From: Styela clava
Taxonomy: Eukaryota > Chordata > Ascidiacea > Stolidobranchia > Styelidae
NCBI RefSeq assembly: GCF_964204865.1
Contig: NC_135259.1
Span: forward strand, 7,698,974-7,762,973
DNA: 64,000 bases
Direction: 5' to 3'
Shown here: one piece after another, positions 7,674 through 60,480 of the stretch
How positions within the stretch are numbered: the stretch's first letter is position 1
How the letters are laid out: every line of letters begins with the position of its first letter
Notes under the pieces: model-generated
Seen by the model: the letters and a program-made list of their open reading frames with translations, nothing else
Database searches by the model: none
Told to the model about the DNA's origin: nothing
Translations under genes and position numbers: made by a program

Positions 7674-10600
7674 CTAATAAGTGTTTTCCTCAATTGTGTT
7701 AAGTATCCAAGGAACGAAATAGAAAACATCCGTATAAAACCCTGGATAGACGACATCGTTGACCTTTGCACCACAGCCGAGTCCCCAACTGACGATGCCA
7801 ACTTGATACCAACACGTCTCTCCTTCTTTTGATTTGATCTAAATGTAAAAGATTAGAAAATAAAATTATATATATGAAATGTGAAAACTCAAAAGTCAAT
7901 TGATTACGTATAAAATGATTTATTGTCGTTCATTCTTTTAACAGCGTTCAAGGTATAATAATGTTTCTACTTTAATTTATTTTAATCAATTCTTGAACTG
8001 AACACTGATGTATTATGTATAAAATCTAAAGACATCCATTATTTTTTTTTAGCTTTTTCCGAAGTATCAATGACGCTACGTACCTTTCTCACGAGCGGCC
8101 CACCACTATCGCCTTGGCACGAATCCACTCTTTTCTTAGAATTAATTGCACAAAATATGCCAGGAACAAATTTAGGAGCACCTTTCCACGTGTCTTTCAT
8201 AACACCCAGCCTGTCTTTGCAACTAAATAAAGAAATAAAATTTTTGGCTAGTTATAAATAACAGCAAGACCACATAAAAAATGACAATAAAACTAGTCAA
8301 TCAAGTTTTAAAAATTGCTGAAAATTCATACTATGTAGTATTTTTAATTTCTAAAGCTCCTTGCTGAAGTCTTAATGACGTAATAATTCCTGAGAAATCG
8401 TCCGGTGTTCGCTCGGTAGTATGTCCAAAACCGGTAACTACTGATGGACTGAAATTGTTAAAGTCCGTACCCGATAACTTGTATTTTTCACCTGAAATAG
8501 TTAAACGGGAAACGTCTGAGTGTCATGTAAATAATACTTGCCTAATTAGAATATTTTTAGAAAAAGAAACTACTTTGACATCATGCAATATTATGTAGGC
8601 CTACAACTTATTATGGCAACTGTAGCTTTATTTACATTACACTAAGTATAACGGTTCTACCACCTACTGAATAAAAAAAATAGGCGACACAAAGATGACC
8701 CCTATCCAAAAGCTTCGGTCAAGACAATCTAACAAAAGTGAGTGACAAAAAAGCAATAAGTGCAACGACCATTTATTTCTACGCTTGGAGTAGATCACGA
8801 CACACGTCATCACGCCACACACTCTTTTGCCCCTGACCAGTGACCGGACGGCGCACAATCATGTATAAAACGTACCTCGTTGAATATGAACATATATATA
8901 TACATGATAGTAAAATGCAGTTCATTTTATTAAATCAAATCAAGTGTTTTTTATTTTACTTTCTACTTTTTTTTCATTATCTTCGCTGTCAAATTTGTTT
9001 TTATATACTTACCTTGTTTATCACAATCATCAGAGTCAAACTTAGAGGAAGAAAATCGAGAATCTTTGCAGTTATTTATACACGGTATACATATTGGTCG
9101 AATAACCTCATTGAATACTAATACACCTACTGAATTGATTATGAAATCTTCATTTTTGATAATTAAGTTATATCCCAGCTTTATCTTAAAACAAAAAATG
9201 AATACAGTAAAGTACAGTAAGATTCCTAGCTGAAGTAAATGAGCTCTATTCTTTAGAGTACAATTTTGTAAATCAATAAAATTTAACCGCGATACAATAG
9301 ACTGGAGACCTTACATCACATATCATCAAAGGTAGTAAACTTTTTATTTCTGACAAAGAAAATTTGCGTAAAAATCAAGAAAGATTATATGTACTTCCTA
9401 CACAGCCTTTGTAGTGTACTTACTAATGCAATATCGTTTTTCATATTATGTAGTGTAAACTTTTCATGCATTATAATTTTATCCGCATCATAGTATCTTT
9501 CAGTTCCAACTTGCTCATCAACTAATCGAATTTCAGTTATTCCTGAAATTCGACAAAAAATTTCAATGATGTTCGAGAATAAAAAATAGTAATATATAAA
9601 TAATAATAATATCATTTTTTTTGTTATAAAAGGAAATCTAGATTCCAGATATCTCTCTCTAGTACAGTGGTTCCCGAACTTTTTAGAGTTGGGACCCACT
9701 ATTTATTACCACAGCTTATGACGACCCATTTAACTTTTTGTGACATAACAAAGAACACAGCAATGGCTAATCATCGCAAAACTACCGTGTTTCCTCAAAA
9801 ATAAAAACGAGAATCTGGAAACGAGACCTAATTTGAATTTTAAAAATGATTTCAATTAAACCCTACCCTAGAAATAAATTTAAAATGTGTGGCAGAGGAA
9901 AGGTTAAATGACCTGAGGTAAGGTGAAGATTATACCACGATTCAAGATTGTGTGATGTCACAATCACAATTATGACATTTGTCACTTGGTTTTTGTATGG
10001 GAAATACGAATAAAAACACGGTATGTCGGTTTTTATATAATGTTTGTTAAAAAATCTCTTGATTTTCTACAATGTAATTTTATTTTCAATAAATGAACAC
10101 AAAAAAACCTCTTTCAAAAAAAAACATAGTGTTATTCTTCGAAATAAAGTAAATCTAAATCCTGTCTTAATTTCGGGGAAACACGGTAAGAAGTGCTGTA
10201 CAATGTACAAAACTGCTATGCGTAAAAAGCCACATGGTCATTCTTTGTGTAGCAAATTTTTGTTCCTTTGAGAAGATCAGGAAAAGGGAACTTTTACAGA
10301 TTAGAATTTAAATTAAATTTGATTTCTTTTGTTTTTTTTGAAGTTTTACGTATTCAAGTCGCCACCGATCCTAATAATCGGTATATTTAATCAAAGCTTT
10401 TTACATCTCTTCACGACCCACTAAGTTCCTTTCGCGACCCACCAGTGGGTCGCGACCTATAGTTTGGGAACCGCTGCTCTAGTAACAACCCCCGCTATGA
10501 GACTAAAAAAAATTATATACCAAGTGGTGTTTGAAAGAGAAAAGACAAAATGAAAAAAAAAGATGATAATCATTCGACTTGTCCAAAAACATTATACTGT

Positions 10601-13600
10601 TTATAAATACTGACTAGATTTTCTACAAATCCAATATTGTTCACGGTTTTCACAGCTTTTAATATTAAAATATCGTCTTTGAGATACAATAAATTTGTTC
10701 AATAACCTTATCTAATTAAAACATACCCATTGCAAATATAAAATTCTTTTGCCAATTCTTCTCTCTTCGTTTTGCTGAATCGAAAATATGAGATGCTGTC
10801 AGCAGCCAACGATTATTAAGTATGGACGCTCCACCTCGAACGTTGTCGAAAGTCTAAAAATAAATATAAAATTCATTAAAATAAAAAAAAAACTCAATAT
10901 ATAGTGGGATGTATACAGATGGACGATTCGATATTTTACTTATGCTGATTCTAGTATTTTTCGATATAGACAAACTCTAGAATTTTTTACTACAGATCTT
11001 CTTATCTGCTATTTTATATAATTATACAATCCAAACATATCGTCATCATTTGTTATATTTGAGTTTTTTCTTTTGTTTGATATTTGAAAATTCGTATGCT
11101 GGCGATAAAACAATATGCGTATATTCAGTATATTTATAATAAATCAAATTTAATCTATTATAACCGTTCCCCCTAACCTGACTGACTGTAGACTTCTTTT
11201 TTAGAACAACAACTTGCCATGGCCATGCACCTTCTATTGCATTTGTTCCTTCAATTACTCTAAGCACTTTAATTTTGTCTATACGATCAACATCACCAGC
11301 GATACCACATTTTGTGTAATCAACTGCAAAGTAATAAAATAGTATTGAAGATAAGTAACAAAATGGCATTCCGTAATAGGATGTTTGTGGTAAATGGAAA
11401 GGTGTTAGGGTACGTCACTAATCTTCTATCTTATTTTGTATGTTTTTGTAGAACAGATGGATTCAAGATACGGCCCGCGGGCCATTGGCCCGATGGACCC
11501 ATTTACGTGGTCCGTGAGAGGCTTGCTATACCATTATTTTTGATACTGTTTCTTATTTTATTTGTAACGGTACCAACCTTTGGCGTTTTCGGTCTTGTGT
11601 TATGTGACTACGTCACACTGGGGTGAAGATTCGTCCGACAAGGATTCAAGAACGCGTTTTTTTTTCGGTGCAGTGTAGTGATTAAAAAAGTTACGACAGG
11701 TATTCCAGTTAGGGATTTGTTCAAAAAGAATTGTTTTAGAACAATTGTTTTAAATCAAGTTTTTTTGCCTGTTTTGTTCAAAATGGCTGTACTATTTGAT
11801 TTTTTGTTTTAAATAGGTTGAAGAAAAATGAATGTAAAAACTTGCCAAGCGCTTCTTATTTGCAATAAATTTTTCAAAACGCCACAAATACCGACAGAGG
11901 CTCATGCACACCTTCTCAAGCTGTAGTTCAGTGGCTGGCGCAGTAAGACGCAACCGATAACGTAACGCCATTACGTAAACGACCCTGCGACAAAACCACC
12001 TTGCGAAATTGAAATGCGATCGAATAAATGAGTTTGTTTAATCTTGAAAAACTCTATCACTTCAACCTTAAAAACAAAGCTTGCTAAGCATAAATTAACC
12101 GAACAATATTAACCGTAATAATGCCTTCATATTACGAGAAAAATGTCAATACATGAACTCGAAATCCACATCATGGCGTCATAACAGATTATTTGAGGCG
12201 TCATTGCATCAGAGGACTCTAACAATTAACATAGGCCAGGCTAGGGTGTCTCATCCGCCGTCGATAAAAGCATATTCTTCATGATCGCAACCCACTCGTT
12301 TTGCCGAAGGCTGCCATCCCTCTAACTGATTTTGTAGTAGGCTTGTGAGCAAATTTTCATGATTTTCTTACTCAAAACGTCTCTTTGATATCACGGATAA
12401 ACATCCCGGTTAAAATCTTATGATTTTTGTGGAGATACGAAAGTCGCGATAAATGTACGCAATAGAAGTAAAAGTCAAAATAGCAATTTTTACTTACATT
12501 TTTAAAATTATAATTCATGCTGCATGTACAGCTGCCCAAATGCAACGTTTTGGCGTAGTTTCGCGGCCATGTATTTCAATACAAAATACAGAAAAATTTG
12601 ATTTAAAACAAGCCCTTATTTTAAAACACGATGTTACTTCTTTATTCAACACAATCACTAAATGGTTTGCCAATGTGGGCGCCACTATTGTACAAAACCA
12701 ATTTGCTAGTTAGTAGTTACGATACCATTGTGGATCAATTAATTGTTGAAGTCCGTATTGTCTTCGGGTAAAAATATTTATCAAAAAATGTCTCTAGAGA
12801 AGAAACATTCAGCGAAATACAGAGTTTAAAACAGTGGCTCGCCGAATGGACGACCTATAAGAAAATCAGAAGTAGAACAAGATAACAAGCAATCGTTGAT
12901 TCCAAACGAGCCTACTACGGAAACGATTAGCATATTTTAAAAGGAGCTATTCATATTATTGGAGTTGCACGAATATGTAAAATTATGCATGAATCGATCT
13001 TTACTTTGGCATCACGTATCTCTTTGATCAGTTCTTTAATTGAAATACGCCCTGGCAAGCTCAACTTCGAGTTGCTATAAACTTGTTAGTTTTCCGATGA
13101 CCCGGCCTTTCATAACTAAAGTTTTACGCTTTGACCCATAGCGATACGCACGTGCACGCCCCTGTTATAAAACGAAACAGGATATTTCTTACTTGTTTTA
13201 GGTTTTGTTGGCAAAGGTGGCGGTGGAAATGGAGGCGGAATGCTTAATTTTCTGGCATCGTCACATGTCACGTCAACGTAGTCCAGTGACCAAGTAGAAA
13301 AAGGTTTGCAAGTGATTGTAGCTACTTCGTATCCAGAACACGTCAGAACAGCCTGTAGTTTAGATAATAGTTAATTAATAAACAGATTTTCTATATTCTA
13401 ATAATATGATGAATAAAGTCCATATGCTCTCATGTATATGTGATGATATTTCTAAAGCTAAAGTTATGATCCTGCCAAATTTTCCTGCCAACAGCAGGAA
13501 GCAGATACTTGGGCGCGATTCCATATTTAAAATAATGGAGGCAACTAGAACAAACGCTTTCTTAGCGATGGAAAATCAAAGCAGCATATAGAAGTACCTC

Positions 13601-16600
13601 ATCTCCTGTCGAAAATTGGATAAAAGCAACGTCGTCTTTATGACCTTGCAGTTGAACGCCAGTTTTAAGTAAATAGGTATCTAGTACGCAACCTCTGTCT
13701 GGAACAAAAATATATGAAAATATTATTACGAAATAAAATTATATCGTAAATACTTTTTTATTTTCAATACCCAAATATCCCATTGCGAATGTAGTATGAA
13801 AACAAGTAAAAAATTTTAACGCATCTAAATTTTTGATTTACGAATAAAATTGATCCCGGGATTGTTTGAAACCATAAACTTTTCGACGGATTTTAAATTT
13901 TCTTAAATGTATATATCAGTCAAACATAGGATTCTTCCTAATGCATCTGCTAAAATTTTAATTGAATAATGCGAAAGCGAAAAGTTTTCCTCTACTATAG
14001 CTAATTCAGAAAAGTTTAAATTTAATGTTTTTTTTTTTCTGTACTTTATTTTTTATTCATGCTGATAATAAGTGCTGAAATTCATAAATTTGAGGTCATT
14101 GATTTATTGTTATCACAAAGTAAAATGTGGATTTATAAATTTTTCTTTAAGAAGAACGCTAACCTTTGCATGTTGGTGGCGGCCCTGACCATTGACCAGT
14201 AGCTCCGCACCAAATAGTTCGGAATCCTAATATTTTGAAGCCTATTTGACAGGAAAACCTTGCGTATGTGCTTGCTGAACTGTATTCAACTGTGAGATAT
14301 TTGGATAGATTGATGAGTTCCGGACATCCTGAAAATAAATAAGCATTGACGTGGTAAATTCTTTTTTGTGCCAAAAAAATAGGATTTTTTCTTCCACGTA
14401 ATAAAATTCGAATATATATTGAAAATCTTACGAATATCTTTGAGTTTTTTCAAGTTTCATATCGATCGAACACTCGAAGAATGTTTTTTGTGAACAATCG
14501 AAATTTTTGCCATATATCAAATATATGCATATATTTTATTATCATGAGTGCGCGTTGTTTTTAGTTGTAACTTATTCATGCTTGCAAGATAAATTCCTGG
14601 AGAATGATTTTTTCCAGTTTTGTATTTCAACACAAGCTTTCCACCTTATCCCGAATGTCACTGATGTAGCTTAGCTATTCCGCACCTTGAAGTTTACCAG
14701 AGTTGGATGCGTATAAGTCAATACAAAAATGTAAACATTTCATAAATGAATATATTATGCTGTTGACCATATTGTATTTAATATTCAGAAGAATATTTTA
14801 CAAATCTTGTGTTAGAATTCGATGTGATAATTACCACATGTTGGTGTGGGATTGTCCCATACGTTCATCCCAACGCATTTCAGTGTCTTCGATCCGTGCA
14901 TATGCAAGGCTTGCCTTTTGCATCTGAATGTTATTGTGGATCTTATTGCATAAATATTGTCACCTTGGAGACTGCTTTCTATAACTTGGACACTCTTTGA
15001 ATAAGGTGGCAGATTACAAAATTGCTCTGTTAAAACAAAAGTTATACTCAATATATATATACAGGGTGTCTCAAAATTAAGTATACACTTTTAATTTTCA
15101 GAGCGTTCATTTATTCGGAAAACATAAGTAGTCGAATTTAGTTATTGTTTGAATTTTTACTGACCCACAGAATGACAATGAGTTTAACCCAACAAATGTG
15201 ATGCAAAAAGCATAAAAATCAATAAAAACTCAACACTTCCTTAACAGAGAATTTGTAATTAATTCGGCTCTGAATGCTTCCCTCGGACCGTCCGCTGCTT
15301 GGTTTTCCTGATTTTTGTGCATCAACTACAGATCGAGTTTCCATAAATTTACGATGAATTGCCCAAAAATTTTCGTCGTGTAGTAACCGAATTAATAACA
15401 AATTCTCTGTTAAATTGGCGCTCAGTTTTCTTACTGATTTATATGCTTTTTGCCAAACAGCAATTTAGCACCTCATTTGTTGGCTTAATCTCCTTGTCAT
15501 TCTATGGGTTGGTAAAAAAATGCAAATATTACCTAAATTTTACTACTTATACATACTATGTTTTCTAAAGAAATGAACGCTCTACGATGAGTACCTGAAA
15601 AGAAAATCAAAATTGAAAGTGTATACTTACTTTTGAGACACCCAGTATAGTCCTTCGAAGGAAATAAGCAAATGTGTATATAGCAAAAGTAATTCAAATA
15701 CAGCATATAAACGTCCCGACAAAGAACTTGCATTGAAGATAGTTATACAAGATGACCCCAATTAAAACCATTACGTTTTTATGCACTTTATTTGAATTAA
15801 CTTGTACATTCGCCAGTAACCCTGGCGAATGTACAAGGTAATTCAAATGCCCCCTGCGCGGTCAAAAACGGTACAATACTTCACAATACCCAATATCTGG
15901 TAGGTCCTACTGAGGTAATATAGTAACATACCTAAACATTTCGGCAACTGATCAGACCATTCACCGTTATCCTGACAATTCAGCTCAGATGCTCCTTGCA
16001 ATTGGAAACCGGTTTTACAAAATATAACAATGAAAGTTCCATCTCGATACTGACGCATGTTGGATCCTTCCGGCGCTGTTAATGGTTTGCATTTAGTTCT
16101 GCTAGGTCCTGTTGAAAATAGAAGAGAATAAAAATTTTGTGATAATGTTGCTTCATGGGATGTTATCATCAATGCCTCGTGGGTTAAACATCATTTCTGA
16201 AGTACATGAGTAGTCGTTTGAAATTCAGCTAGCGTTTATTTGAGCAAACTAAGCGAACCGTAAAATGCCAGAGATTTCAGAAACGAATGCAAAGGCCAGT
16301 ACCTGATCTAGACACAAGATGGATGCGTCTTTATTATATATAATTTATGTAAAGTGTAACTGAAAGATCTATAGCGGTTCTCAAACCGTAGGGCGCGCCT
16401 CACAATAGGAGCGTAGACAACTTTTGAGGGCTCTCCAGAAGTATGTGCATCAAGATGGCGGACACCGGAACGTAGTATGAGTACCAGGTTGGGATTAGGC
16501 CATAATTTTATTCCAATTTTCTCCTATTTGAGTTTTATTACGAGTTTGGGGACTAGCCAAGTGACTCTTGTAGTATTTGTGCCTGAAATTTTATCCTAAT

Positions 16601-19600
16601 TCTAACCAGGTACACATACTACGTTCTGGTGTCCGCCATCTTGGTTTGCATAGTTCCGGAGTAACTCTTTGAGGGAGTGAAGCTAATTAAAAATAAGACT
16701 ATTTGTTAGATTTGAACTTTCCCGATTTATTTTGGTTTCAAATCTTTTTATTTTTTTTTTCATTATTTACACTTCATCCACATATTTTCAACGTGTTTTT
16801 CAAATTAAACAATTTCGCCTTACTATTTGTTATTTGTAGCTTATTGTTAGGGTTAGCTAGTTGTAGCTAGTTCTCTTTGAGGTGGGGTGCAAGACTTGAC
16901 AAATTCTAAAAAGGGTGCGCGGCTTAAAAAGTTTAAGAACTTTCCATGATGCTTTGGCACAGGGGCGGGCAACTTCTCTAGTCGGCGGGCCAGATGTGAA
17001 AAAATAAAGCCCTCGGCGGGCAGGATTATTACAAAATTATTATTATTGCCCACCCCTGCGGGCAGCATAAATAAAATCATACGAATAAAACAAAAATTGT
17101 CTACATCAATGAATACCTGCAAATATTCGTGAACTGTCCGTGGTAGACGTGAGAGTAGTAGTAACTGTAGAAAGAGTAGTTGGTATAGCAGTGGTAGAGC
17201 GACATTGTACCTTACTGTAATCTACTGACCACCTTCCGTCATCGCGACATCTTATGGACCTCACTATCCGATCATAACATTTCAGATTTATCTTATAAAA
17301 CAAAATTATTGAAAGAATTAATGTTTAAATAATAGTTTATTCCAAATTTAGTCTATACAGCATTTTTGATAGAACACGGTTACATTTTCGTATTTTTCTC
17401 TAAAAGCTATCCATTAGAGAATAAATTTAATTAATAAATTTATATTCTCGCCTCCAAAGAAAAGTGATAGCAGACATTGATAGTATATAAGGCTATGTAT
17501 GAAGCGCAGAAAGTTGAAAGAAATTCTCCTCTAGCCGCTTGTAGCGGTGTCTCGAAAATGTCGTGTCCCACATGTCTCACTTGTTTCACATTGCCCTGGT
17601 ACAAGTGAAATACGTGGGACAAGTGAGGCACGTGGAGCAGGTGGGACAAATGGCAGAATGTCCCAAAAGGTTTTTTATCAACATCTGAAGAAATACCGGA
17701 TATGTGTCTAAATGTATATTTTGAGTTTATTATTACTATTATCTTCATAATAGAACATAAATTTAACATTGCTATTATCAACATTTGCTTTTCTGAAAAT
17801 AATAACTTATACATATCAGTACTTTTCCTCCTTTCTTTTTGATAATCTTTTCTTTCTTGTCGTCGTAGTTTTCAACAGTGACTCGGTTATTCAAATAGAA
17901 TTGATCAAGTATGCATTTCCTCTCTGAAATATAATGCAATTTTTAATAGTTCGCATTGCTGTAAACAAGGTACGCAGCAGCCACTTTGAGGCAGAGGGTT
18001 GAAAAAGTTGGACTGACTGTAATCTCTCTGATTAGGCATATATAATCTCGTTTGTGTTGGGTTAGAGTTCATGACATGGGCAAACTACGGTCTGCCCTCA
18101 CATGACCCGCCAATCTAGGTGCCAAATTTTTGTCCCGTGGTTCAAAAACCTTGCCAACCCCTGGGTTAGACGCTAGTCTAACAATGATTTAATTAAAATA
18201 GGTATTTCTAAAGTGCAATGCCAATAAAATAACATCATTTCATTACCATCGCGCTCATTGGTGAATAAAACTATTGGTTGTTTCTTACCTGGGCGTGAAC
18301 GGCACGAAGGAACATCGGCTGACCATTTCTGAGCTTCGTTGCAAAATATTTGTTTCTCACCCATTAGAATATATTTTTCTTCGCAGTTAAAAGTAACTGT
18401 GGAATTTATTAAACGAAGTCTGTCTGACCGCGAGTATGAGGCAACAAGATTGGAGGGTAGTGTAAGTTCCGGACATTGTATTGCTGTGAATTAATGAAAA
18501 TTAAAATAGAATATGGAGTTGATAAATTTTTTGAGACTTCCGGAGGTTAGGCTACATGACTGTTTTTAAGGATCAAATCCAGATATGATCCGTGCTTTCT
18601 ACAATCATTACATACACACCGGCTGTGGAATTTTATCTCATAATAGTGCAATACGTTGGGTGTCTCAAAAATGTCATGTCCCCGCGTGTCCCACTCGTCC
18701 CCCATGTTTGTCCTAATTGTCCAACGTGTATCGCTTGAACAACCATTTTTTCATGTCTGTTCCAAACAATCCAGATGATAATTAAATATTATATATCAGT
18801 ATCGGAATACCGAAAATTCGGTATTTTCAAATATCGGCGTCTCGATATCGGATCATCGAATTGAAAAATATTTTTTTATAAATAATAATTGCAATACTTT
18901 AATTCAATCAGGTGTAGTTCACTTATACGCCAATTTTCACCACCTTGAAACAAGTAGGGTACGTTTGGAAAGTGAGACACGTTGGACACGTGGGACAAGA
19001 CATGTTCAAGACACCGCAATACGCCATCACATAGATAAACAGCTGAATGAAGAAAAACCAATTTTTTTGTCTGAATTAAAAATATGACCAGAACCATAAT
19101 ATATAAGGCTTTTGACCAAAAGCTAGAACAAATGTAAAATCTAAAATACAATCAGGAATATGGAGAATAAACATAGCATACCTTCGCATGTAGGCGCACT
19201 GGTAGACCAGACGTCACCTTCTTCACATTTCAATATTCTACTCCCAATAAGTCGATATCCAGATTTACAGAAGAAAGTTGCAAATTTGTTGTTCGAAACA
19301 GTCATTTCGGAATTTGGATTTGCTGTCAATCTGGGACAATTTGCAACTGGAAAAAGGTAACTTGCGTAATACATTGAATGCATCGAAGATGGAAGTTTTT
19401 TTAAAATATTGTGTATATGTTATAATTATTAATTATATATTTTATTACCTCTTTGGCAAACGATATTCAGTTTTGACCAAACGCCGTTTTCCTGACAGAA
19501 CGCATAATCTTCCTTCACTACATTTTTGTATCCTGTAATGATAAATAAATTCGTACCGTTTGACAATGCAATTGAATTTTGGCATATAATCTCCCTATTC

Positions 19601-22600
19601 TGAATCATTGTCTTCTTTATATTGGTCACTACGTGAGTTGATTTGTTTTTCGATACACGTGATTTCGATGTAGAAAAGGGGTTTTGTGAATGTAAGAATT
19701 ATCCTTAATTGCCAATCCAAAAGTTTATCAGTGAATGTTTTAAAAATAGTTATAATAATATGTCTTGATAGTCCTTCAACAAAATGATAAAAACATTTTA
19801 CATACCGCTAAATTAAAAATATTGCCTGGTGCTAAAACGAGTTTATACGAACATTGTGAAGTGGAACGATTTTCGATAATGAGCAATGAATTCAATAAAA
19901 TTGATAAATAAATTCAATAAACTTCCTCAGACCTTCTGCACACTTATAATGAGCTTGCAGTATTCCGCTTTTAGACGTGTCGATCGTTGGTGAATCTGCA
20001 GATATTGATTTATCGGAAGATTTTGGAGGTGTTCCACATTTATTTTCCAAACAACTATGCCGAGGTGTAGACCAAGTGTAATCTTCATTGCACTTAATTT
20101 TTGAATCTCCGAGAAGAATGTAACCTTTGTATAAAATAATTACATACTGTATCATTAATATTTGTAACCAGTATATATCAAAAATATAATATAATGTAAT
20201 ATAATTTATAATACATATAATTATAAAAGTTGAAAAAGTAAAATACTACACGTAATTATAGTAGGATTGAATATCCATCCTTTTTGAAAACTCGGTTTTG
20301 ATTGTTGTAAATACAGAGGACGAATACAGAATACTACCGACCATATTCACAAACGTGGTGAACGACATCTCGGACATCATATCCTAGTTTTAGTGATATT
20401 GCAAGTGAGTGATGGATGATGTTCGTCGGGGGCTTACATCCACCTTAAAAATGAGATTATTTGTTGATATTACGCATGTAACATAAAATGGTATTATAAA
20501 ATAAAACTATATGAAAAACATTCCTACAAATTGGATCTAAACAATTGGCGAGAATATAATATGCTAGAAAGCAATCCTCACATATATGGACATAAAAATG
20601 GCGAAACGGTACGGGTATGGTAAATCTTCTTATCTGAACACTGATTTTACCGCACAGATCGTCGGCGAAACGTGACGGAGGAAGACAATCGTGACGTAAT
20701 TTTATGTGTTTCCATCCCCAAATAAGTATCCTTTTTAATTGAAATAAAACTTCGAAAATTTCAGGTGAGACATTTGAAAATGAAATACTCACGAATGCAC
20801 GTTGGTTCAATGCCAGACCACTTTCTATCAGTTCTGCATTTCTGGAATATGTCACCGTAAATATAATAACCTTCCTTGCAATCGTACTGTAATTTTTGTC
20901 GTCTATCTCCATAATATTTAGCAATTTTTGGATAATAGACTGAGGGAAGATAACAATCTGCATCTGTCAATAGGAGGATAAAACTGCATATAGGCACAAG
21001 ACTGCTGTTGGCTCATTGCGGATCCAGTATAGGAATAAATGAAACTTTTTGAAAAATAATGTAGAATCGATTTCCCCCTTACTCGTCTATATATATATAT
21101 TATTGTTTGATTTGTCGGTAGTTTAATCGTTATCAGCTACAACGACTTACTGTATTTAGGTAAAGGGTAATCCTGAAGTATTCGCACCACGATGTCGCAC
21201 AACCTGAATCCTAACCTGTTACACGACCTGAGTTCAGGTGGTGCGCCATCTTGGTACGCATACTTCAGGAGGTCCAATTAAAGTTTATTTCTTTTAATAC
21301 AAAAAAAGTAAGAATATCAAAAATATCAATCGCGGAAAGGTAATAGCTGCAAATTAATATTGGAAAGAATATAAATTACTTTAGCTCAAAGTTTATCAAA
21401 TTATAAATTACTTGGATTGAAGCAAGATCGACCACAGTGGTCATCACAAAGACATTCTTTCGATTTCGCCTTGCAGTCCCATTTCGACGAGCATGGTTTC
21501 CTACACTTTCGTCCTGCTTCAACTAAATGAATGTTTTTGGTACATTTCTCGTCACCTGTCGCAAAAGGAGATAATGTTTATTCTATAAAATTAGGTGCAA
21601 ATACGTAAAAAATATGGAGCAAAAGCGTGGGAACAATTTCAGTAAATCATTTCACAATGTAGTCAGATTGATAATATAATTTCTTCTCACTTGGTATAGC
21701 ACATGTATTATGGAGGTGAAGCAAACGTACTTAAACTAATACTGTATGTCAAATTCTGTATTTTATATTGTAAAGAACTTTACTCAATCATTAAAATTAT
21801 AGGCAACAGTTTATTGATTCAAATACGGGGAACTAAAGTGAACATAATAGCTGTGACTATAAATTCTGCATATCCGTAAGCTGTTTTATTCGTTAAATTT
21901 CTATTTATTTATTTGGGAAATTTGGGAAAAATCTGAAATGTTGTTGGATAAATCTTAAACTACGTTCGAAACAAATGAAGTGCTGTAAATGTCACTGAGT
22001 TTATTTTCGTTTCGAAGCAGTAAACTGAACAAGGCCCAAGGCGTTAGGGACTTTCTGACATAAAGTATACATCTGCTATAAATAGAAAACTCAAATGACG
22101 ATTTCTATTGGGGCATCATAGGAAAATTGCTCGTTTGCATTGGTTGGATAAACGTTTTCAGTAATTAGGAAAAAGGAATACCTATGTTTTCAACGATCTT
22201 CATAGCTTGCCGACATTCTGCCATTGTTTCGCAACATTGTGTTGAACAAGCAGTTAAGTCCACGTCGTAAAATCCAGATGCTACGAGGGCGACAATATTT
22301 TCGCAAGAAACTGAATTGCACTGCGCTTTTGGAATACATGAAGCTGCTATAAGACGTTCACCTAAAACAAAAACAATATGAAAAAATGATTACAATATTA
22401 TCTTAGGTGTAAAGTATTCAGGTATTGTGTTCTGTAATTCAAATTCAAATAAGTAATACATTTCCAAAGTTACCCGAACAGGTTTGAAAAAATATTCATC
22501 ACTTTTATAATATACAGCGTTTTCACATATATTTTAAAGAGAACAGATCATATTTCAAATACTGATATAATTAATTCGAATTTACGTCTACCAGATGATT

Positions 22601-25125
22601 GCCCCTATATCTTATTGTAAAAATGTCCACTGAAATTATGCATAGTATTCCTTTGATTCTTTTTCATTACGTGTGGCAAAAAGCTCCATTGCGAAATTCT
22701 TTCGTAAAGCATATAGCTGCATTTAGAAAATAAATTGTTGATATCTGTTACAAACGTTGCTAATATTTATTTTAAAGGAATCTCAAATATTATTTTGTTT
22801 CAAATCAAAGTTTTATTATTTTTTACTTTTTCATATTTTTTCACATTGACATATATTTTTTTTAACTTGAATATTTTAAATACGATTACACATTGAATAT
22901 TCAGTGTAACATGTGCAATAATACTTTAACATTCACATATGTTTAGAATCTGTATAACGTCGGAATTTCGTTGTATCTAACTAAAAAAAATTAGGCAAAG
23001 GCCAAAATATTCAAACAGACGTTTAATATGAAAATAAGTCGTCCGAAGAATGACAATTTCCACTACAGGGTATAATAAGGTCAACTCGAAAATAAATGAA
23101 ACAAGGAATAATTTCTAAGATGCAGTACTTTTATTAGGCTGATCTATTTTGAAATAACAATTTCATCTGATATCAGATGCATAATATTAATGATAATTCT
23201 TAGAAAACACCTCATTTACCTCCTGATTGCAGTTTGAAATCTTTCATAACAAGACAGCTTTCATCTTTTGAACATTTGACTTCAATTAGGTCATGATCTT
23301 CATAGTCAATAATAGAATTGTAAATATGAATTCCACGAGGGCAGGAGGCCAGACCTATTTTGGGTAAAAAAAAAATCTTTTACCTAAATGAACTGAAATT
23401 GAAATTGCGGATTATGTTTCAAATTCACAGATTATAACTATGAGGCTGTAAGACAAGTCGATGACGTAGAATCGTGCACAGATTGTGTGAAAGTGATCCA
23501 ACTGATTACTCTCATTAAGATATGTTTTCTGCATTGTTCCAAACTGTTCTCATGTTTCGAAGGAAATTTATAAACTATTTTTTTCTACAATTATATATTC
23601 TCAGTGTTCTGATATAACATTTATACTACAGCAAGCTTTTGGTAAGGAATTGTGTATAATCGCCACAACAAAGCGCAAATCAGGATCAAAAACTTAGCTG
23701 CCATGGTGCCTTTTTTGTGTGTGTGATCAGTATGTAGGCGTCATCATTGAGACAACTCGACATAGCGATTTTTCATAAAAATGTTGTATTAAATAGAATT
23801 AATAAATAAAAATCAAGAAAATATAAGTTATTTCCTACTTTGTGAAGTTACATCACTGATGGATCTCGAGCTTTTTCTTGCTTTTTGATATCGAAGTTCA
23901 AATGTGGATAAAGGATTGATAACGAAAGCTATCAAACGTATCTTGTTTGTTTTGGTTTCGTATGTTACTTCAAACTCCTCATTGTGAAACACTTTTTCCA
24001 AAGATCCATCTGTTAGCTGATATAATTGACGATAGAAATAAGGTGCATTATGTTGTGCCAGAACTTGGTTCAAATGTTGATAATCTCCGTGTTTGAGAAA
24101 ACCGAAACTTCTCCAGTTCGACACACGTAAAGACTATTATAAGTTTTATTGATTTGAAAATGAACTTTAAAGATCTGAAGCATGAAATCTCTTCCACCAG
24201 GCTATCGCGTCTACAAACGTTAATCAAATAATAAAAGTTTAAACTGATAGGATTTGTTACTTAATTTTTCTGAAATGTTACATTTAATCTAAAAGTCACT
24301 AAATTACACAATTTTTGCAATATAAAATGTGGAATAATAAATAAGTGTTTTTACGTTAAAAATTTTCAATACGCATTTGCAACTGACACAGTTGATGAAA
24401 CAAAACGATTTCATTCCAAGTAGCTTCACATACCTCAAACTAGCAGGTTGATCTTTGCTTAGAATAAATAAAACAAAAACAAAAAAACAGCCGCTTAACA
24501 ATTCTGTCATGAAAATTGTTTTCTTACCCATAACGTATCTGGTCCTGAAAATTTTATGAATGGAAAGAATAAGTTGATAGTTGTGCCTGGATCAGTTTCC
24601 AAGTGCCACGTACATGTTAAGCTTTCTCTATCTCGTCTCGACCATGTCTTCAGTGATATAGTCTTAGCACCGGCGCTCACTTGCTCATTGAACTTACATT
24701 CATCTACAACAATAAAAGAATACTCACTCCATGAGCGGAATTATAGAATATGAACCCAAGTTTTGGGGGTATAATTTTTAGTAAAATCACAATTATACCA
24801 ATAGCATTTAAAGAATGCTTAATTTTCAGGAGGATCTAAAGGAATTGCTTTGTCGACGTTGTCTGACAAATTATTAGATGATTTAGTAACTTAGTTTATA
24901 TTATTTGAATTTTACTAGTTTAGACAAAGTAAAGGCTCCTAGAATAATAATCTTTCATCCTATAAAATTTGGCGAATTTGAAAAAAAATTGATAAAATAA
25001 ACCTAAGATTCATGAACGAATAAGTCTACTATTAATATATAAAAAAAAAACATACCTTCTCCGTTTATCTTCAACGTATTCACAAAAAGTAGACATCCAG
25101 TAAAAATCAAATTAATGCAATTCAT
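7674..25125 (-). CDS. Secreted CUB/LU/WAP-like/10x CCP serine protease (MASP/C1r-type)
   Basis: I assembled 26 exons (minus strand): 25125-25056, 24703-24528, 24133-23839, 23354-23220, 22361-22182, 21555-21412, 20963-20793, 20443-20342, 20124-19933, 19532-19449, 19346-19182, 18483-18289, 17923-17823, 17291-17117, 16108-15932, 15026-14835, 14328-14164, 13698-13598, 13352-13193, 11323-11178, 10853-10727, 9542-9402, 9129-9013, 8491-8332, 8222-8084, 7838-7674. Phases agree throughout and give 1324 aa. Order: signal peptide (1-19); CUB-like domain (about 25-165); Cys-rich Ly6/uPAR-like module (181-285); WAP-like Cys module (287-331); ten CCP domains (about 335-965) with a Thr/Ser-rich linker after CCP6 and a Pro-rich linker after CCP10; trypsin-fold domain. 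Activation is probably after R1015 (R|VIEG). The triad is H1064 (TASH), D1121 (NDIAL) and S1263 (GDSGGP); D1257 predicts trypsin-like specificity. The His-loop cysteine pair is missing and the active Ser codon is AGT, both as in C1r/C1s/MASP-2. The role is inferred to be a complement or clotting-type zymogen. The exon 22/23 junction is the least certain. Confidence 0.92.
9665..10476 (+). mobile_element. hAT-type non-autonomous element with 8-bp TSD (812 bp)
   Basis: The termini are CAGTGGTTCCCGAAC and TTTGGGAACCGCTG, inverted relative to each other. The 8-bp sequence CTCTAGTA directly precedes (9657-9664) and follows (10477-10484) the element, an exact target-site duplication as hAT transposases produce. 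It lies in the intron between exons 21 and 22 of the protease gene. No transposase frame is present. The window-start fragment (1-302) is a second copy. Confidence 0.92.
11324..13192. other. Large protease intron (between exons 19 and 20)
   Basis: This is the 1.87-kb intron between the Pro-rich linker exon and the first protease-domain exon. It has a short GC-rich patch near 11470-11510 ('cggcccgcgggccattggcc') that looks like the end of a hAT-type element, and an ORF at 12453-12713 that I do not recognise. I see no further exon with CCP or protease features. Confidence 0.55.
15062..15645 (-). mobile_element. Tc1/mariner-type element, 584 bp, flanked by TA
   Basis: The element begins CAGGGTGTCTCAAAA and ends TTTTGAGACACCCAG, with a TA on each side (15060-15061 and 15646-15647). 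The inverted repeats extend inward through 'taagtatacac'. On the minus strand a short frame (15401-15219) contains [20 protein letters not shown] followed by GKPSSGR. This matches the second helix-turn-helix and GRP-like hinge of Tc1/mariner transposases. The catalytic domain is gone, so it is an internally deleted element. It sits in the protease intron between exons 15 and 16. Confidence 0.88.
16431..16665. mobile_element. Palindromic 'AAGATGGCG' MITE, copy in protease intron
   Basis: The left arm reads 'gaagtatgtgcatcaagatggcggacaccggaacgtagtatg' in part and the right arm is its reverse complement ('ctacgttctggtgtccgcc' then 'atcttggtttgcatagttcc'). The same family occurs at 32392-32626 with a matching interior. 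It lies inside what looks like an older element whose ends are 'agcggttctcaaacc' (16371) and 'gtttaagaac' (about 16940). Confidence 0.8.
16960..17058. mobile_element. 99-bp mini inverted-repeat element
   Basis: The ends CAGGGGCGGGCAA and TTGCCCACCCCTG are perfect or near-perfect inverses over 13 bases, with hAT-like CAG...CTG termini. I did not find a matching 8-bp duplication. It lies just downstream of protease exon 14 in its intron. Confidence 0.6.
18656..19015. mobile_element. 360-bp inverted-repeat element with 8-bp duplication
   Basis: The left end begins TTGGGTGTCTCAAAAATGTC and the right end is ...GACATGTTCAAGACACC. The 8 bases GCAATACG occur directly before (18648-18655) and after (19016-19023). 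Both ends are rich in 'gtgtcccac/gtgggacac' motifs. A related but truncated copy is at about 17540-17670. It lies in the protease intron between exons 11 and 12. Confidence 0.75.
21172..21269. mobile_element. 98-bp palindromic 'AAGATGGCG' MITE, short version
   Basis: The left arm 'cctgaagtattcgcaccacg' runs on to 'gcacaacctgaa'. The right arm is 'ttcaggtggtgcgccatctt' followed by 'ggtacgcatacttcagg'. The arms are about 37 bp with a 24-bp loop. It belongs to the same family as 42925-43031. It lies in the protease intron between exons 6 and 7. Confidence 0.75.
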
Positions 25126-40300: not shown

Positions 40301-43300
40301 AATTACATTAGGGGCTTTTCAGAAAGATCCCTGTCCGGTTTTAATGAGGTATCTATTAACAGCTGTTCAATAAGCCGGTGAGACACCAACCAACCAAGGT
40401 CAAAATCGAAATTTGACGAACAAGCTGCAATTTTTGAGCTCATACATCATACATCTTGAGAGAATTATCTGATGAACTTGCCTGGGCGTACAGAAAGCAA
40501 TCAATATTTCTATCCGAAACGTTTCAGATAAATTGTTTCTCAATAGTTTCGCGAATGAATATGTATTTTCAATGATTTATTTTGATTCATAAACTTAAAA
40601 ATAGTCATGTATTTACGTATACCACGACAAACATTGAGGCTGGACAAATTCCAAAAAAAATGAATATTATTCATTTGTTGTTATAGATATTTTCTCAACG
40701 CAACAACAAGTGAGCTGACAGGTATCTATGCCATAAATCAGTTGTCAACATCATCAGCATTAGCATTTGCATCCGAAAATAATGACAAAAGAACGCATGA
40801 CGCACTCTCTAATCTGGGACCTGATTTTAATGTTACAGAATATAGTTATCGGTACGGATTTTCGTTGAATTCGACGGTCATGCCACGTTGCACGTAAGAC
40901 GAATTTTTTATTTTTTTCATTGTCTTCATGTTGCAACCTAAAATTTGAAATCTCCTTTTGTCAACAAACATAATAATGGGGGAAATCACTTTACTCAGTA
41001 GCTTGATGCTTCACAGAGTTATCTTCGATTTGTCATTTTGTATATAATTTTTACTGCCCTAATGCTTGTATTCTGATTGACGAAATAAATATCTCTCTTT
41101 CTCACTCATCCTATACGAGTGAGACCACAATTTAACGTATTTTCGTAATGTTTTTCGCTGGATCCCAAAATGAACATTGGGTTGGGAAATGGGAAGCACT
41201 GAAATAATTAATTAAACGTTTCAATGACAGGGTGGTGCCAGGGAACCAAGAAAATGTAAACCAATGCTTGCTCGGCATACGCAAATATCCATCATTATAT
41301 GATCCACAAAATGTTGGAATATCATATATACAATCCATAACACTAAATTTTTTAATTTCGAAATAGGTTCAAAACTGAACATTGCTCTGAGAGTGACTTC
41401 ACTCCAATCATTACGTCTTTGGGGAGATGCCACACGTTTAATGAAGGAAATATAAGTCGCACCCAAAATATACCTGGATCAGGACATGGACTAAGTATGA
41501 TCATCGACGTGCAACAATACCTTTATACAGAGGAGCCTTTAGCTGGAATCGACGAAGCGGGAATTAAAGTTCAGGTCATAATAGTAAATTGGTTTTAAGT
41601 CCGTACTGTGTGACTAAGTTTTCAAAACGTGAACGATGACACTGCAGAGCATATTCACCGTAGTGGGTGATCATATATTTTATGTTCTCGATAAAATCTC
41701 AAATTTCTATCGTTAAAATACCTTCACAAAAATAATTTCATACTGTTGTCTCTCTTTTTCTTATTTTCCACATGTCTCAAATTTATTTCTAATATATATA
41801 TTCACTTTTCGTCTTTTTTTTTCTTTGCTTCAGGTTCATCCTCCATATGAAGAACCTGACGTCGAAACGTACGGTGTTGCTGTGCCTGTCGGGCAAAAAG
41901 CATTCATAGAGGTTACGCGTGTGGACAACGGGCTGATGTACGAACCATGGGGAAGGTGCGACCCTTCAAAGGAGTCTTTAAACTACTTCTCGACGTACAC
42001 TTTGAACAATTGCCTAAATGGTATGATTTTTCTATTTTGCGTAATTTGAGCGGAATCATATAATAAATACTGAACAAACTAAAATATCGCAAAAAGCGAA
42101 TTCGTAAGTCGGTTCACTTTTCGAGCAAATGACAGATCCAAAATAAAACTCAAACCAGAAAACAGAAACTTTTTATTGATGTCCTGCACAGGAGAAAAAG
42201 ACAAATAGACAACCTATTGTTCAATATATGAATAGATATCACGAACGACGCCGATTTTGTCACCAATGGATGTTTCTCAGGTGGTGAAACTTTGGTGAGA
42301 CTTGATCATAAAATTTTGATCAGTTAGACATGTTAAACATCAACAAATTACTACAAATTTAAAACTGTACAAGTAATACTATAGGGAGACAAGATGCGGC
42401 CTTAGGGATAAAGACTGTTCACCCTAATATTCAAAGTTCGATTCCCACGTTATTAATTTCACGTGTTATGGAATGTGACTCCAATCTGGATTCCCTCAGA
42501 CGATAATAAGCAAACGATGGTGATTGTCGAATTGTTGTAAATTATTGAAAAGATGCACGATCCAAATTCCAAATACAGATAAAATTGTACACACTTAATT
42601 CTTAATGCAATATTACGGTCAGATCACAAGTCATATCACGAGTGAAACAAAAAACACAATATTATAGAGCAGGGATGGCGAACCACTGACCCGCGGGTCA
42701 CAAAGTGACCCACCGCGTTTTATTCGTGACCCACTAAGGCACGAATAAAATAAAATACTAACATATCTGCGATTATAATTGATAAAACCGGCCTTAAATT
42801 AATCTAACAATAAGTAATCTATTATAATGTACCGTCAGTTGGGCAGTCAGGGCTGCGATTGCTCATATTTAAATTGTTAATTCCTGGCCGGTATGGTAAT
42901 TTTCAAAACCCCCAATCTTTGACGCATGTCTGCACCGCTGTGTACCAAGATGACGCATAACCTGAAACCTAACCTGGTACACATACCATGTTCAGGTTGT
43001 GCGTCATCTTGGTACACATACTTTGGGAGCATCCTTTATTTAGCTATTGGCTCAGACATCGTTTATGACATGACAATGCAATTGATATTCATATCTCGCA
43101 ACGTCTTGTCTCTTCAGGAAGTGCATTTGCAGACTGTTTTAGGGGTTATTCGAGAACAATGACGTTAAACAATGTCATTTGCGAGAAGTAGAAGCTACTT
43201 TGCATTTTATTAGTTTCTCGCCTACAATGCCGTTTAGAAAACAAAATTTTTCAGACTTGAAATAAAAACCTAGAAATAACAATGGGGCAGTGTAAAAGTG

Positions 43301-52005: not shown

Positions 52006-52887
52006 CTTGATGATTCTAAACAAAGAGCAATAGACTGATAAAGCAGTTGAATAAACTGATGGAAGGCACCAGGGTAATAAGGCCTGGTTTCAGGCTCATG
52101 TTTGGAAATTTTAAAACTAACTTCTTTTTATCAAAAACTAACAAAAAAAAACGAGAAAACAAACTTTAACTGATATGAAAAAATGATACTAAAATCCATA
52201 CCGAATGACAAACAGCCAGCGAGATCGATCCACGAGAAAGGACCGATCATGAGGTGAAAGTTCAAAAGGCAGAAAATATGTTACAGTTGAACGGAGTTCC
52301 TATTCTTCGTACCGGTATGTTTTTTAGTTCAAATTTTTCATTTTTGTTCAAACAAATATTAATTCAAAAATATTTCAGTTCACACTGATTATAAATACGC
52401 CTTCCGGTGCTTTTAATTTATATCCCAAACTTATTTGGACTTCGGTGTACCGGATACATGTAAAATCACAATGACCTTATTCATAACTTAGAATTTTATC
52501 AATATCTGTTCATTATTGTTTATTACTATTTTGCGCTAATTGTATAGAATATTTCATTTATATTATTGTTATCGCTGCATTTGTAGGTATTGCCTTCAAA
52601 TACGCGAAAATAGGCTATATAACGATATGCGTTGAGGTCTGAGTCTTCCGGATTTGCGTGTGATCGATTATCCCTATTCTCATAAGCTCAGTCACGGGAT
52701 TTGACTTGCCAGAGTTTCAACAATATTTAGAATACTAAAGTTTTGTCAGACGGAGTTCCAATTTGTTATAATAAGATATTTGCATCGTTTAGTAAATACG
52801 GTATTATTTACATTTTGCTGGTTGAATATCAGTTTTTATGGATGTCAAAGTTTTCTGGAAATGAAGAGGACTGTAAATTTGCGTGAT
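52006..52887. promoter_or_regulatory. Shared intergenic region of divergent RPL38 and INIP
   Basis: The two start codons face away from each other across 882 bases, so both promoters must lie here. I do not see a clear TATA box for either gene, nor a CpG-rich patch. The region has no other recognisable coding sequence. Confidence 0.5.
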
Positions 52888-53199
52888 ATGTCAGCAGCAA
52901 ATAACGGACAGATGCCAATCGGCGGTCAAGATCAAACAAGAAAAATATTGTCAGACTTGCAGAAGGAAAAAGCTAGACTTCGAATGTTACAACAAGGGGG
53001 TGGTGCTGTTGCACCCGGATCGTCAAGGATTCCTATTAATCCATCTCTTGCCTCAGCTGAAAATTCCCAGCATATTGGAGCGAACCAAAGAAATGCCATG
53101 CAAGTTGCTCAGAATTCATCATTTGGATATTTTATTCCACAAGACTCTGCATTTGGAAATGTAATTTTGCCAGTTGTGCCTCGTATAGGCCCTAATTAA
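52888..53199 (+). CDS. INIP: SOSS complex subunit C (INIP)
   Basis: A single uninterrupted frame encodes 103 aa, almost exactly the length of vertebrate INIP (104 aa). It begins MSAANNGQMPIGGQDQTRKI, has the conserved helix region ILSDLQKEKARLRML, the 'HIGANQRNAMQVA' segment and the hallmark C-terminus GYFIPQDSAFGNVILP. INIP binds INTS3 and the single-strand DNA-binding protein SOSS-B in the complex that senses single-stranded DNA at double-strand breaks in the nucleus. An in-frame ATG at 52861 would add nine residues (MKRTVNLRD); I prefer 52888 because it matches the family N-terminus. The gene has no intron, unlike its vertebrate counterparts. It lies upstream of HTD2 on the same strand and divergent from RPL38. 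Confidence 0.94.
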   Translation: MSAANNGQMPIGGQDQTRKILSDLQKEKARLRMLQQGGGAVAPGSSRIPINPSLASAENSQHIGANQRNAMQVAQNSSFGYFIPQDSAFGNVILPVVPRIGPN

Positions 53200-53209
53200 T
53201 TTTGAAAAA

Positions 53210-53422
53210 ATGGCAGTGCCACATGATAATTTGGTAGACTTACTGCCTGACTGCTGTACTCTATTCTTATTTAACAGAGTACAGGAGTATCGTAGGCTGA
53301 CAGGCCTAACGCATCAGGTGTTTTTCTTTGCTAGTTCGCAAGAAAAAACTGACCAATATCTGAATATGCAGATATGTAAAAGCTGCCATAATAGGCCTTT
53401 GTTGTCAGTTACAGGGTTATAA
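53210..53422 (+). CDS. Small ORF (70 aa) 10 bases after the INIP stop codon
   Basis: The frame starts at ATG (AAAAAATGGCAG) ten bases after INIP's TAA and runs 70 codons to TAA. The product has six cysteines, including a terminal CKSCHNRP, but no domain I recognise; it is not similar to RPP14, which precedes HTD2 in vertebrates. Its position within the probable INIP 3' UTR, or within a possible shared INIP-HTD2 transcript, is suggestive, but a chance ORF is the simpler reading. Confidence 0.25.
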   Translation: MAVPHDNLVDLLPDCCTLFLFNRVQEYRRLTGLTHQVFFFASSQEKTDQYLNMQICKSCHNRPLLSVTGL

Positions 53423-53719
53423 CTTATACAGTTGTAGACTAGTTAAGCTAAATATCGCTATAGTCTTCAGAGCTTCAAACTAAATTCTAAAATTGGATTC
53501 CACAATCTAATTTAGCCCTTTTTTCATCAATATTGTACTATGTTAAACATAACTTGAAATTAAACTTTTCCTAGTTGTAGTTTTGTCTCTATTACCATAC
53601 TGTTCTAACACTCCAGCGATATTGATAATCTGTTCCAGCGAGTTCGAAAAAGTCATGTAAGCATGAAAAGCACGAAGGGAAATTAAGAAGAAAGCAAGCC
53701 AAGCTACCAAACTTCCAAA

Positions 53720-54232
53720 ATGCTTCGCAACTTCAGCTCATACTTTGTCAACAAATTTCAGCCAGCTACAATCTTGTACAAGCAACAATTAAAAAAAGTG
53801 TCATCATCCTCTTCGCCTGTACTGAAACCGGTTCTTGGTGAACGAGCTTCCACAATTAAAACATTCAGCAATCAAGATGTTCAAACTTTTGCCGAATTGA
53901 CAGGAGATGATAATCCGCTTCATTTTGATCACAAGTTTGTTAACCAATCAGGGGTATTTCAAAAACCCATTGTTCATGGTGCATTAGTTAACGGCCTTGT
54001 TTCAGGCGTAATTGGTACGCAGTTACCTGGTCCAGGAAGTGTTGTAGTTGAACAATCGTCACGATTTTTGGCGCCTTTATATGTTGGAGACACTGTCAGA
54101 GTAGAAGTTATCATAACTTCTATCAAAAAACGATTTCTGGATTTGGCAATTGAATGTATCAATATGGATGCTGAAGAAGAGAAAAAGGTTATGCTTGGGA
54201 AAGTGACTGTTATGATGACAAAAAAGAATTGA
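53720..54232 (+). CDS. HTD2: Mitochondrial hydroxyacyl-thioester dehydratase type 2
   Basis: One exon encodes 170 aa (human about 168). It is the 3-hydroxyacyl-ACP dehydratase of mitochondrial type II fatty acid synthesis, which makes lipoate precursors. The N-terminus MLRNFSSYFVNKF is basic and Ser/aromatic-rich with no acidic residue until about residue 41, as expected of a mitochondrial presequence. The hot-dog (MaoC-like, R-hydratase) domain begins at about residue 46 with the signature FAELTGDDNPLHFDHKF; catalytic D63 and H68 have the right spacing. Next come VHGALVNGLVSGVIG and LPGPG, then the strand around YVGDTV. It lies 520 bases after INIP on the same strand. A polyadenylation signal AATAAA lies at 54559-54564. 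In vertebrates this protein is read from the bicistronic RPP14 mRNA; here the upstream gene is different. Confidence 0.95.
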   Translation: MLRNFSSYFVNKFQPATILYKQQLKKVSSSSSPVLKPVLGERASTIKTFSNQDVQTFAELTGDDNPLHFDHKFVNQSGVFQKPIVHGALVNGLVSGVIGTQLPGPGSVVVEQSSRFLAPLYVGDTVRVEVIITSIKKRFLDLAIECINMDAEEEKKVMLGKVTVMMTKKN

Positions 54233-59935: not shown

Positions 59936-60480
59936 CTACAGCAGCCTATGATGCCAATCTTGGGAAGTATTGTCGAAAAAGTGGTGGTAGTGTTTTACTA
60001 CTCGCTTCACAGTCCAACAAATCAGAAACGACATTTTGTTTTCGATTGAATCAATCCAGCGCCAGAATACGTTGTCGAGATTGGATTTAGATAAATCAAA
60101 TATGTCTGCTAACGTATCAAAATGTTCGTTTAGGCGTAGTTTCATGAGGGTCATGAGCATTTGATCCACATATTTCATTTTATAATGGCACGGATCTGGC
60201 AAACAGGGGCAGAAGAAATTGGACATAACATCAAATGTTTCTAATGGTAAATCAGTATAGTAAATTAATTTCTTTGGCTTTTTGCTCAAGTTCTTGTAAC
60301 TAAAAATGTAAAAATTTTCTAGTTTTTTCACTGCCTCACTTCTCTCTATTCTATGCTGTAAAAGTTTCGCCTTAAAGTTTTCTAAATTAGCTAAAAAGCT
60401 TCATCTTTCTCTTTTCTGATTTGTAAATTTTTCTCCTCGAGTAACTCTAATTGATTTTCTTTGGCGGTTGCGTTGACTCA
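59936..60480 (-). pseudogene. PIF/Harbinger-type transposase relic, N-terminal part
   Basis: The open part (60331-59936) reads through YYTDLPLETFDVMSNFF, QMLMTLMKLRLNEHFDTLAD and IFDLSKSNLDNVFWRWID. This is the N-terminal HTH region that precedes the DDE domain in HARBI1/THAP9-like 'DDE_Tnp_4' proteins. Upstream (60331-60480), frameshifted coiled-coil sequence (QLELLEEKNLQIRKEKDEA) continues the same protein. The frame stops before the catalytic domain. No DDE motif is seen downstream on this strand. Confidence 0.7.

Follow-up and report, generated by a model that had tools for sequence, protein, structure and literature searches.

Complement factor B docks on C3b through its vWA domain in a Mg2+-dependent manner. 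In C1r, C1s and the MASPs the modules are ordered CUB-EGF-CUB-CCP-CCP-SP (CCP, sushi module; SP, trypsin-type protease domain), and C1r, C1s and MASP-2 have neither the His-loop nor the C136-C201 disulfide and encode the catalytic Ser with AGT. Limulus factor C comprises a Cys-rich front, many CCPs, LCCL and C-type lectin modules and an SP; SVEP1 has vWA, EGF and pentraxin modules and no SP. According to the available portion of one survey, all C2s and BFs are arranged as CCP1-7-VWA-SP, save one group with fewer CCPs (PMC11312191), and the available portion of another article states that the characterised invertebrate C2/factor B proteins all keep the classic CCP-vWA-SP order and that ascidian factor B carries extra domains (PMC4714745). 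In the horseshoe crab, factor C is reported to be both required and sufficient for C3b to be deposited on Gram-negative bacteria, and deposition by this route needs neither Mg2+ nor factor B (PMC3351276, available portion).

The locus described here lies in a 64-kb window of Styela clava DNA (C13:7698974-7762973 in the 376.6-Mb assembly; positions below are those of the window unless a contig is named). A gene on the minus strand, with its ATG beginning at 25125 and its stop codon ending at 7674, encodes a single secreted multi-module protease of unusual architecture, hereafter the C13 protein. A splice-site and phase search around exon cores picked by eye gives 26 exons and 1296 aa, in which a signal peptide is followed by a CUB-like module, a module with ten cysteines (10-Cys), a WAP-like module, ten CCPs and a trypsin-type SP. 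The gene limits and the single secreted mosaic protein agree with an earlier, sequence-only reading of the window; the length given in that reading was 1324 aa.

The sequence is already deposited as a prediction. P0001 (1295 aa, an independent prediction in uniref/nr whose uniref entry is a cluster of 4 sequences) has the same module chain, is identical at 1277 of 1295 positions with 18 substitutions and 0 gaps, and stops one residue before the end. A second protein, P0002, contains in a single frame the 10-Cys module, the WAP-like module, ten four-Cys CCPs, the linker and the SP, without the CUB-like part. The exons of the C13 gene are as follows.

Exon 1, 25056..25125, minus strand: signal peptide (23 residues), judged by eye; identical in P0001
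Exon 2, 24528..24703, minus strand: first half of the CUB-like module, 2 Cys; Pfam CUB 16.6 bits, cut-off 21.4
Exon 3, 23839..24016, minus strand: second half of the CUB-like module; start fixed from P0001
Exon 4, 23220..23354, minus strand: first half of the 10-Cys module (LU-like in the sequence-only reading); 10 Cys kept in P0002
Exon 5, 22182..22361, minus strand: second half of the 10-Cys module
Exon 6, 21412..21555, minus strand: WAP-like module, 8 Cys
Exon 7, 20793..20963, minus strand: CCP1
Exon 8, 20342..20443, minus strand: first part of CCP2
Exon 9, 19933..20124, minus strand: end of CCP2 and start of CCP3
Exon 10, 19449..19532, minus strand: end of CCP3
Exon 11, 19182..19346, minus strand: CCP4
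Exon 12, 18289..18483, minus strand: CCP5
Exon 13, 17823..17923, minus strand: first part of CCP6; CxLD subtype, phase-0 internal intron
Exon 14, 17117..17291, minus strand: end of CCP6 and Ser/Thr-rich linker
Exon 15, 15932..16108, minus strand: CCP7
Exon 16, 14835..15026, minus strand: CCP8
Exon 17, 14164..14328, minus strand: CCP9
Exon 18, 13598..13698, minus strand: first part of CCP10; CxLD subtype, phase-0 internal intron
Exon 19, 13193..13352, minus strand: end of CCP10 and Pro-rich linker, at the place of the vWA in factor B
Exon 20, 11178..11323, minus strand: factor B-type linker (12 residues), activation site R|VIEG, start of SP
Exon 21, 10727..10853, minus strand: SP, catalytic His (LTASH)
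Exon 22, 9424..9542, minus strand: SP, catalytic Asp (NDIAL)
Exon 23, 9013..9184, minus strand: SP, RPICIPC..NC..C pattern, partly common to factor B/C2
Exon 24, 8332..8491, minus strand: SP
Exon 25, 8084..8222, minus strand: SP, D189 and catalytic Ser (GDSGG, Ser codon AGT)
Exon 26, 7674..7838, minus strand: end of SP, stop codon

The start of exon 3 in this model was taken from P0001 and is not independent of it, since the exon was shortened after the two proteins had been compared. The whole-protein Pfam scan and the N-terminal searches used the initial model of 1335 aa, which is 39 aa longer at the start of exon 3. In uniref, P0001 is named after SVEP1, a name that we considered and rejected: sushi repeats are shared with SVEP1, but Pfam shows an SP and no vWA, EGF or pentraxin module, and because the domain content does not fit, the label looks wrong.

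In exon 25, a run of 23 residues just before D189 (residues 1205-1227) accounts for five of the 18 differences from P0001, and four of these five alter charge. Such clustering occurs in 0.0019 of random placements, for a stretch length chosen post hoc. We take the cluster to reflect divergence between alleles or at the level of the exon, close to the substrate pocket; no second copy of exon 25 that could account for it was found in the 64-kb window.

P0002 comes from a 3917-base contig and is probably a transcript assembly, since 3917 bases are too short for a gene with so many introns. Its CCPs carry the Trp in 9 of 10 cases, and our own CCP profile detected 8 of them. The sequence-only reading had raised the case that the N-terminal modules and the protease might belong to separate genes, against which P0002 joins all of these parts except the CUB-like one. 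The same reading knew of no match for the module order, and among the matches listed we found this order only in P0001 and, minus the CUB-like module, in P0002. One could still suppose that exons 1-3 represent another gene or isoform and that the core protein starts at the 10-Cys module, as might be expected from the apparent signal peptide that P0002 has directly before that module and from a CUB match that stays under the cut-off. However, the CUB-like and 10-Cys parts are joined in one frame in P0001, and inspection of the longer open reading frames by eye revealed no signal-peptide exon just before exon 4, so that a division at this point appears improbable.

Only the sushi and protease parts of the protein are recognized by Pfam above the cut-off, and both far above it (initial model: Trypsin, 106 bits; Sushi, 163 bits); when pieces were scanned separately, CUB and WAP appeared below the cut-off only, and an NCBIfam search returned no informative match. 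The CUB-like module reaches 16.6 bits with an E-value of 0.01 against the Pfam cut-off of 21.4. Its sole PDB matches are four insignificant ones (E 0.56-1.7), to CUB-domain proteins. In a small CUB profile of our own, 2000 shuffled sequences were made and 1808 scored, of which 12 equalled or outscored the module. The module can be called CUB-like, as it had been before, though weakly so, and a firm CUB identity does not follow. For the 10-Cys module (exons 4-5) there is no Pfam match and no PDB match; all ten Cys are kept in P0002 at 34% identity, and the Cys spacing does not begin C-2-C. Its previous designation as LU-like is not established.

The WAP-like module has 8 Cys with C-x-C as the middle pair; in a canonical WAP domain this pair is CC. 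Relative to the Pfam WAP cut-off of 20.8 bits, the C13 protein (13.5) and P0002 (15.4) score below and P0007 (24.8) and P0015 (25.2) above; the WAP-like label assigned at first stands for the 8-Cys pattern. Of 18 further proteins, 13 show this pattern; it is missing from a Clavelina MASP2-like protein and from four factor B/C2 proteins (two from spiders, one from a frog and one from a gar). Residues 1-360 of the initial model matched no protein other than P0001 (1125 candidates), and residues 20-235 of P0002 matched P0002 alone (65 candidates), although distant relatives may be missed because these searches need shared 5-residue words.

The number of CCPs, also given as ten in the sequence-only reading, rests on the Cys pattern: 40 Cys fall into ten four-Cys sets, each with a Trp between Cys3 and Cys4, where Pfam by itself gives 8 Sushi stretches and our own CCP profile is not independent, having been seeded partly with this protein. 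CCP6 (17823-17923/17117-17291) and CCP10 (13598-13698/13193-13352) belong to the same odd subtype, with a C-x-L-D start and a phase-0 internal intron, and a low-complexity linker comes after each of them, which suggests an internal duplication. P0002 seemingly has three CCPs similar to this subtype.

The SP has the catalytic His, Asp and Ser, the specificity residue D189 and the R|VIEG activation site of an S1A trypsin-like protease, and the triad and activation site are found in P0002 as well. Because these elements are intact, proteolytic activity is likely on sequence grounds. The His-loop and C136-C201 disulfides are missing, and the Ser codon is AGT. The CIPC motif and the later Cys occur partly in frog Bf and gar C2 and are absent from MASP-2, C1r and C1s (the C1r and C1s rows of this comparison and of the larger tree below were entered by hand); the CxPC pattern is absent from spider factor B.

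With residues 600-1295 of P0001 as query, 138 proteins matched at E<=0.001, of which the best 120 were listed. Among the 13 matches ranked next after P0001 and P0002, 12 are tunicate (P0005 counted as such), several of them named complement factor B-like; the non-tunicate one, P0006, comes from a fish and contains many SPs. A tunicate MASP2-like protein appears at 1e-12 among the matches listed (best 120 of 138). In a midpoint-rooted tree of 37 hand-chosen SPs, with human MASP-2 taken from a PDB alignment and one tunicate MASP included, the C13 protein and P0002 pair at 100/98 inside a tunicate-only group of 19 rows (100/99) that holds factor B-like proteins of Ciona, Styela and Clavelina. Two more outgroup sequences did not fit the pattern by which the SPs were cut out and are absent from this tree. 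The nearest SPs to the C13 protein and P0002 are those of P0009 and the first SPs of P0003 and P0005, at 96/89 with 37 rows and 98/92 in a pruned set of 31 rows, from which the hand-entered C1r and C1s sequences, a coral row and, from P0003, three divergent SP copies were removed. The tunicate group stands in the pruned tree, with vertebrate Bf/C2 as its neighbour (92/84). Factor B SPs of all animals do not form one group in the 37-row tree, and a single group of tunicate and other factor B is not rejected with 31 rows (p-AU 0.226). The PDB matches of the P0002 protease did not distinguish between protease lineages.

The sequence-only reading had labelled the SP MASP-type, and the C13 protein would then be an initiating protease of the MASP/C1r type whose front had been rearranged. 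Its CCPs before a trypsin-like SP and its CUB-like module are reminiscent of that family, as are the two missing disulfides and the AGT codon, which recur in C1r, C1s and MASP-2. The same disulfides are, however, missing from tunicate factor B-like SPs; Pfam shows neither EGF nor a second CUB, so that the CUB-EGF-CUB front and the module order of the family are not found, and there are ten CCPs instead of two. The phylogeny also separates the two, since holding the C13 protein and P0002 with MASP/C1 is rejected by the AU test in both the 37-row set (p-AU 0.00045) and the 31-row set (p-AU 4.8e-06), and a MASP is matched in all its parts elsewhere in the genome, in a cluster at C8:17.31-17.37 Mb. 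We regard a MASP-type origin as very unlikely and replace the label by factor B-type. The sequence comparisons support derivation of the SP and its linker from a factor B-like ancestor, and we consider the anatomy and the factor B ancestry, taken jointly, to be highly probable. At a separate place in the genome, C2:27000514-27001539 lies in a single 388-aa open frame and matches the Clavelina MASP2-like protein over its second CCP and most of its SP (residues 391-732), apparently as an intronless protease part.

The likeness to factor B and C2, as represented by the tunicate proteins P0010-P0014, extends to SP grouping, the linker that follows the vWA, part of the CxPC..C pattern and the presence of CCPs on the N-terminal side, and tunicate factor B-like forms also carry WAP-like modules. 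The differences are the ten CCPs, the CUB-like and 10-Cys modules in front, and the lack of a vWA. Apart from the linker, neither profile nor tblastn searches found a vWA in the protein or in the gene region, and it is likewise missing from P0001 and P0002. The 12-residue linker directly follows the Pro-rich linker and corresponds to the linker located behind the vWA in factor B. Among nine vWA-preceded SPs in eight tunicate proteins, CGxAGx[VI] is present in all nine and DYxxCG before it in seven; of the two factor B proteins from spiders, one carries TIDYSKCG. As for the relatives without the domain, only the C13 protein keeps IDY before the CG, and P0002, P0003 and P0009 keep parts of CGxAGD. 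We infer from this pattern that the vWA exons were lost and the following exon was kept.

A vWA could also have been overlooked, in which case the protein would be a true factor B; the vWA-proximal linker is kept, and intron 19, at 1.87 kb, would offer room. With no profile or tblastn match in the gene region, and with P0001 and P0002 equally devoid of the domain, this is hardly credible. Because the vWA was looked for and is absent, we class the C13 protein as a factor B-derived protease and not as factor B. P0009 and the first SPs of P0003 and P0005 also have no vWA directly before them, and since these are the nearest SPs, a vWA-less tunicate branch seems to exist. No published account of the protein or of such a branch was found in the literature searched, which included few subscription papers, and the available portion of PMC8849226 contains nothing on such a protease.

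The combination of WAP-like module, CCPs and SP is common to the C13 protein and its tunicate relatives. P0009 (TSP1-rich, Styela), P0003 (four SPs, Styela) and P0005 resemble the C13 protein in having a WAP-like module shortly before an SP that no vWA directly precedes, and differ in their fronts and in SP number; the second SP of P0005 does follow a vWA. Across P0003, P0004, P0005, P0008 and P0009 the set appears strongly shuffled: an SP may be combined with TSP1 repeats, be repeated four times in succession or stand before a WAP and eight CCPs, and one protein contains two vWA-SP units, some of these being predicted models that are possibly fused.

In the genome, P0010 (Styela clava, named complement factor B-like) matches C5:10.28-10.29 Mb at 88-100% per exon. 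A factor B-like gene cluster occupies C5:10.24-10.48 Mb, and more WAP-like or SP matches lie on C5 at about 11.7, 13.1, 14.1, 18.8 and 20.2-20.5 Mb. The N-terminal modules (initial model) have at least 33 genome matches, 6 at the gene itself and 27 elsewhere; all 27 start at residue 274 or later, in the WAP-like part, and 24 of them are on C5. No match to the CUB-like and 10-Cys exons was found elsewhere in the genome. For the SP there are at least 87 matches, 7 at the gene and 80 elsewhere, of which 34 are on C5, largely in the same regions as the WAP-like matches, and the rest include general trypsin-like genes; all of these counts are lower bounds. No paralogues were detected elsewhere in the 64-kb window at E 1e-3. 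Other features seen in the window are:

41717-42046, plus strand: amiloride-sensitive sodium channel exon (Pfam ASC)
52705-54229, plus strand: SOSS complex subunit C-like exon adjoining a MaoC-like dehydratase open frame
57216-57515, plus strand: ATP-synthase C-like exon
59939-60400, minus strand: helix-turn-helix fragment, DDE transposase type

Limulus factor C, judged from its description, resembles the C13 protein in placing a Cys-rich front and many CCPs before the SP, and differs in its LCCL and lectin modules, of which Pfam finds none here (Sushi and Trypsin only). The module order corresponds neither to C1r/C1s/MASP nor to Limulus factor C, as had been proposed. Horseshoe crab factor C is the nearest functional parallel and a possible work-alike.

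The best explanation overall, to which we give roughly an even chance, is a factor B-derived zymogen in which the C3b-docking domain has been lost and a long adhesive arm acquired. The docking mode of factor B is not available to it, because the vWA is absent. With that grip gone and a long chain of modules in front, the protein probably has a different manner of starting or extending an immune cascade; it is probably a recognition or initiating protease, and it may be an initiating zymogen, as the sequence-only reading had suggested. For an immune-cascade role as such, we would put the chances slightly short of even. In the zymogen, a disulfide would tie the linker Cys to the SP and keep the catalytic chain attached, and the arm of ten CCPs and front modules would provide binding, whether to a surface, to a recognition molecule or to a C3-like protein. 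Cleavage at R|VIEG by a trypsin-like protease would then free the N-terminus of the catalytic chain, and the active enzyme would cut after Arg or Lys, its substrate being either a C3-like protein or some downstream zymogen. Though descended from factor B, such a protease would act like a MASP or factor C, as an initiator or extender without vWA docking.

Alternatively, the protease could serve fertilization, the egg coat, the tunic or the extracellular matrix, and not immunity. Large mosaic proteases, HrTTSP-1 and HrOvochymase among them, are used by ascidian gametes, but the former is transmembrane with EGF and ricin modules and the latter consists of SP and CUB modules, both unlike the C13 protein (PMC9265791, available portion). 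The TSP1 repeats of the sister protease P0009 would suit a non-immune role; the factor B-derived SP speaks against it, and we think such a role unlikely, though still to be reckoned with. The vWA-less branch may itself serve several non-complement roles, since the fronts of the other members differ (TSP1 repeats, four SPs).

Returning to the factor B-derived zymogen, the loss of the docking domain, the linker left behind and the 13-module front show that such an enzyme can be re-armed by domain shuffling, and they make testable the question of whether a factor B-type protease can activate C3 without vWA docking. A broader proposal, which we hold to be distinctly doubtful, is that tunicates made factor B into a vWA-free protease family in which the C13 protein would be a C3-activating initiator, docking through its arm of CUB-like, 10-Cys, WAP and CCP modules in place of the Mg2+-dependent vWA. 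If this is true, the enzyme of the alternative pathway would have been turned into a recognition protease that resembles MASP and factor C by convergence.
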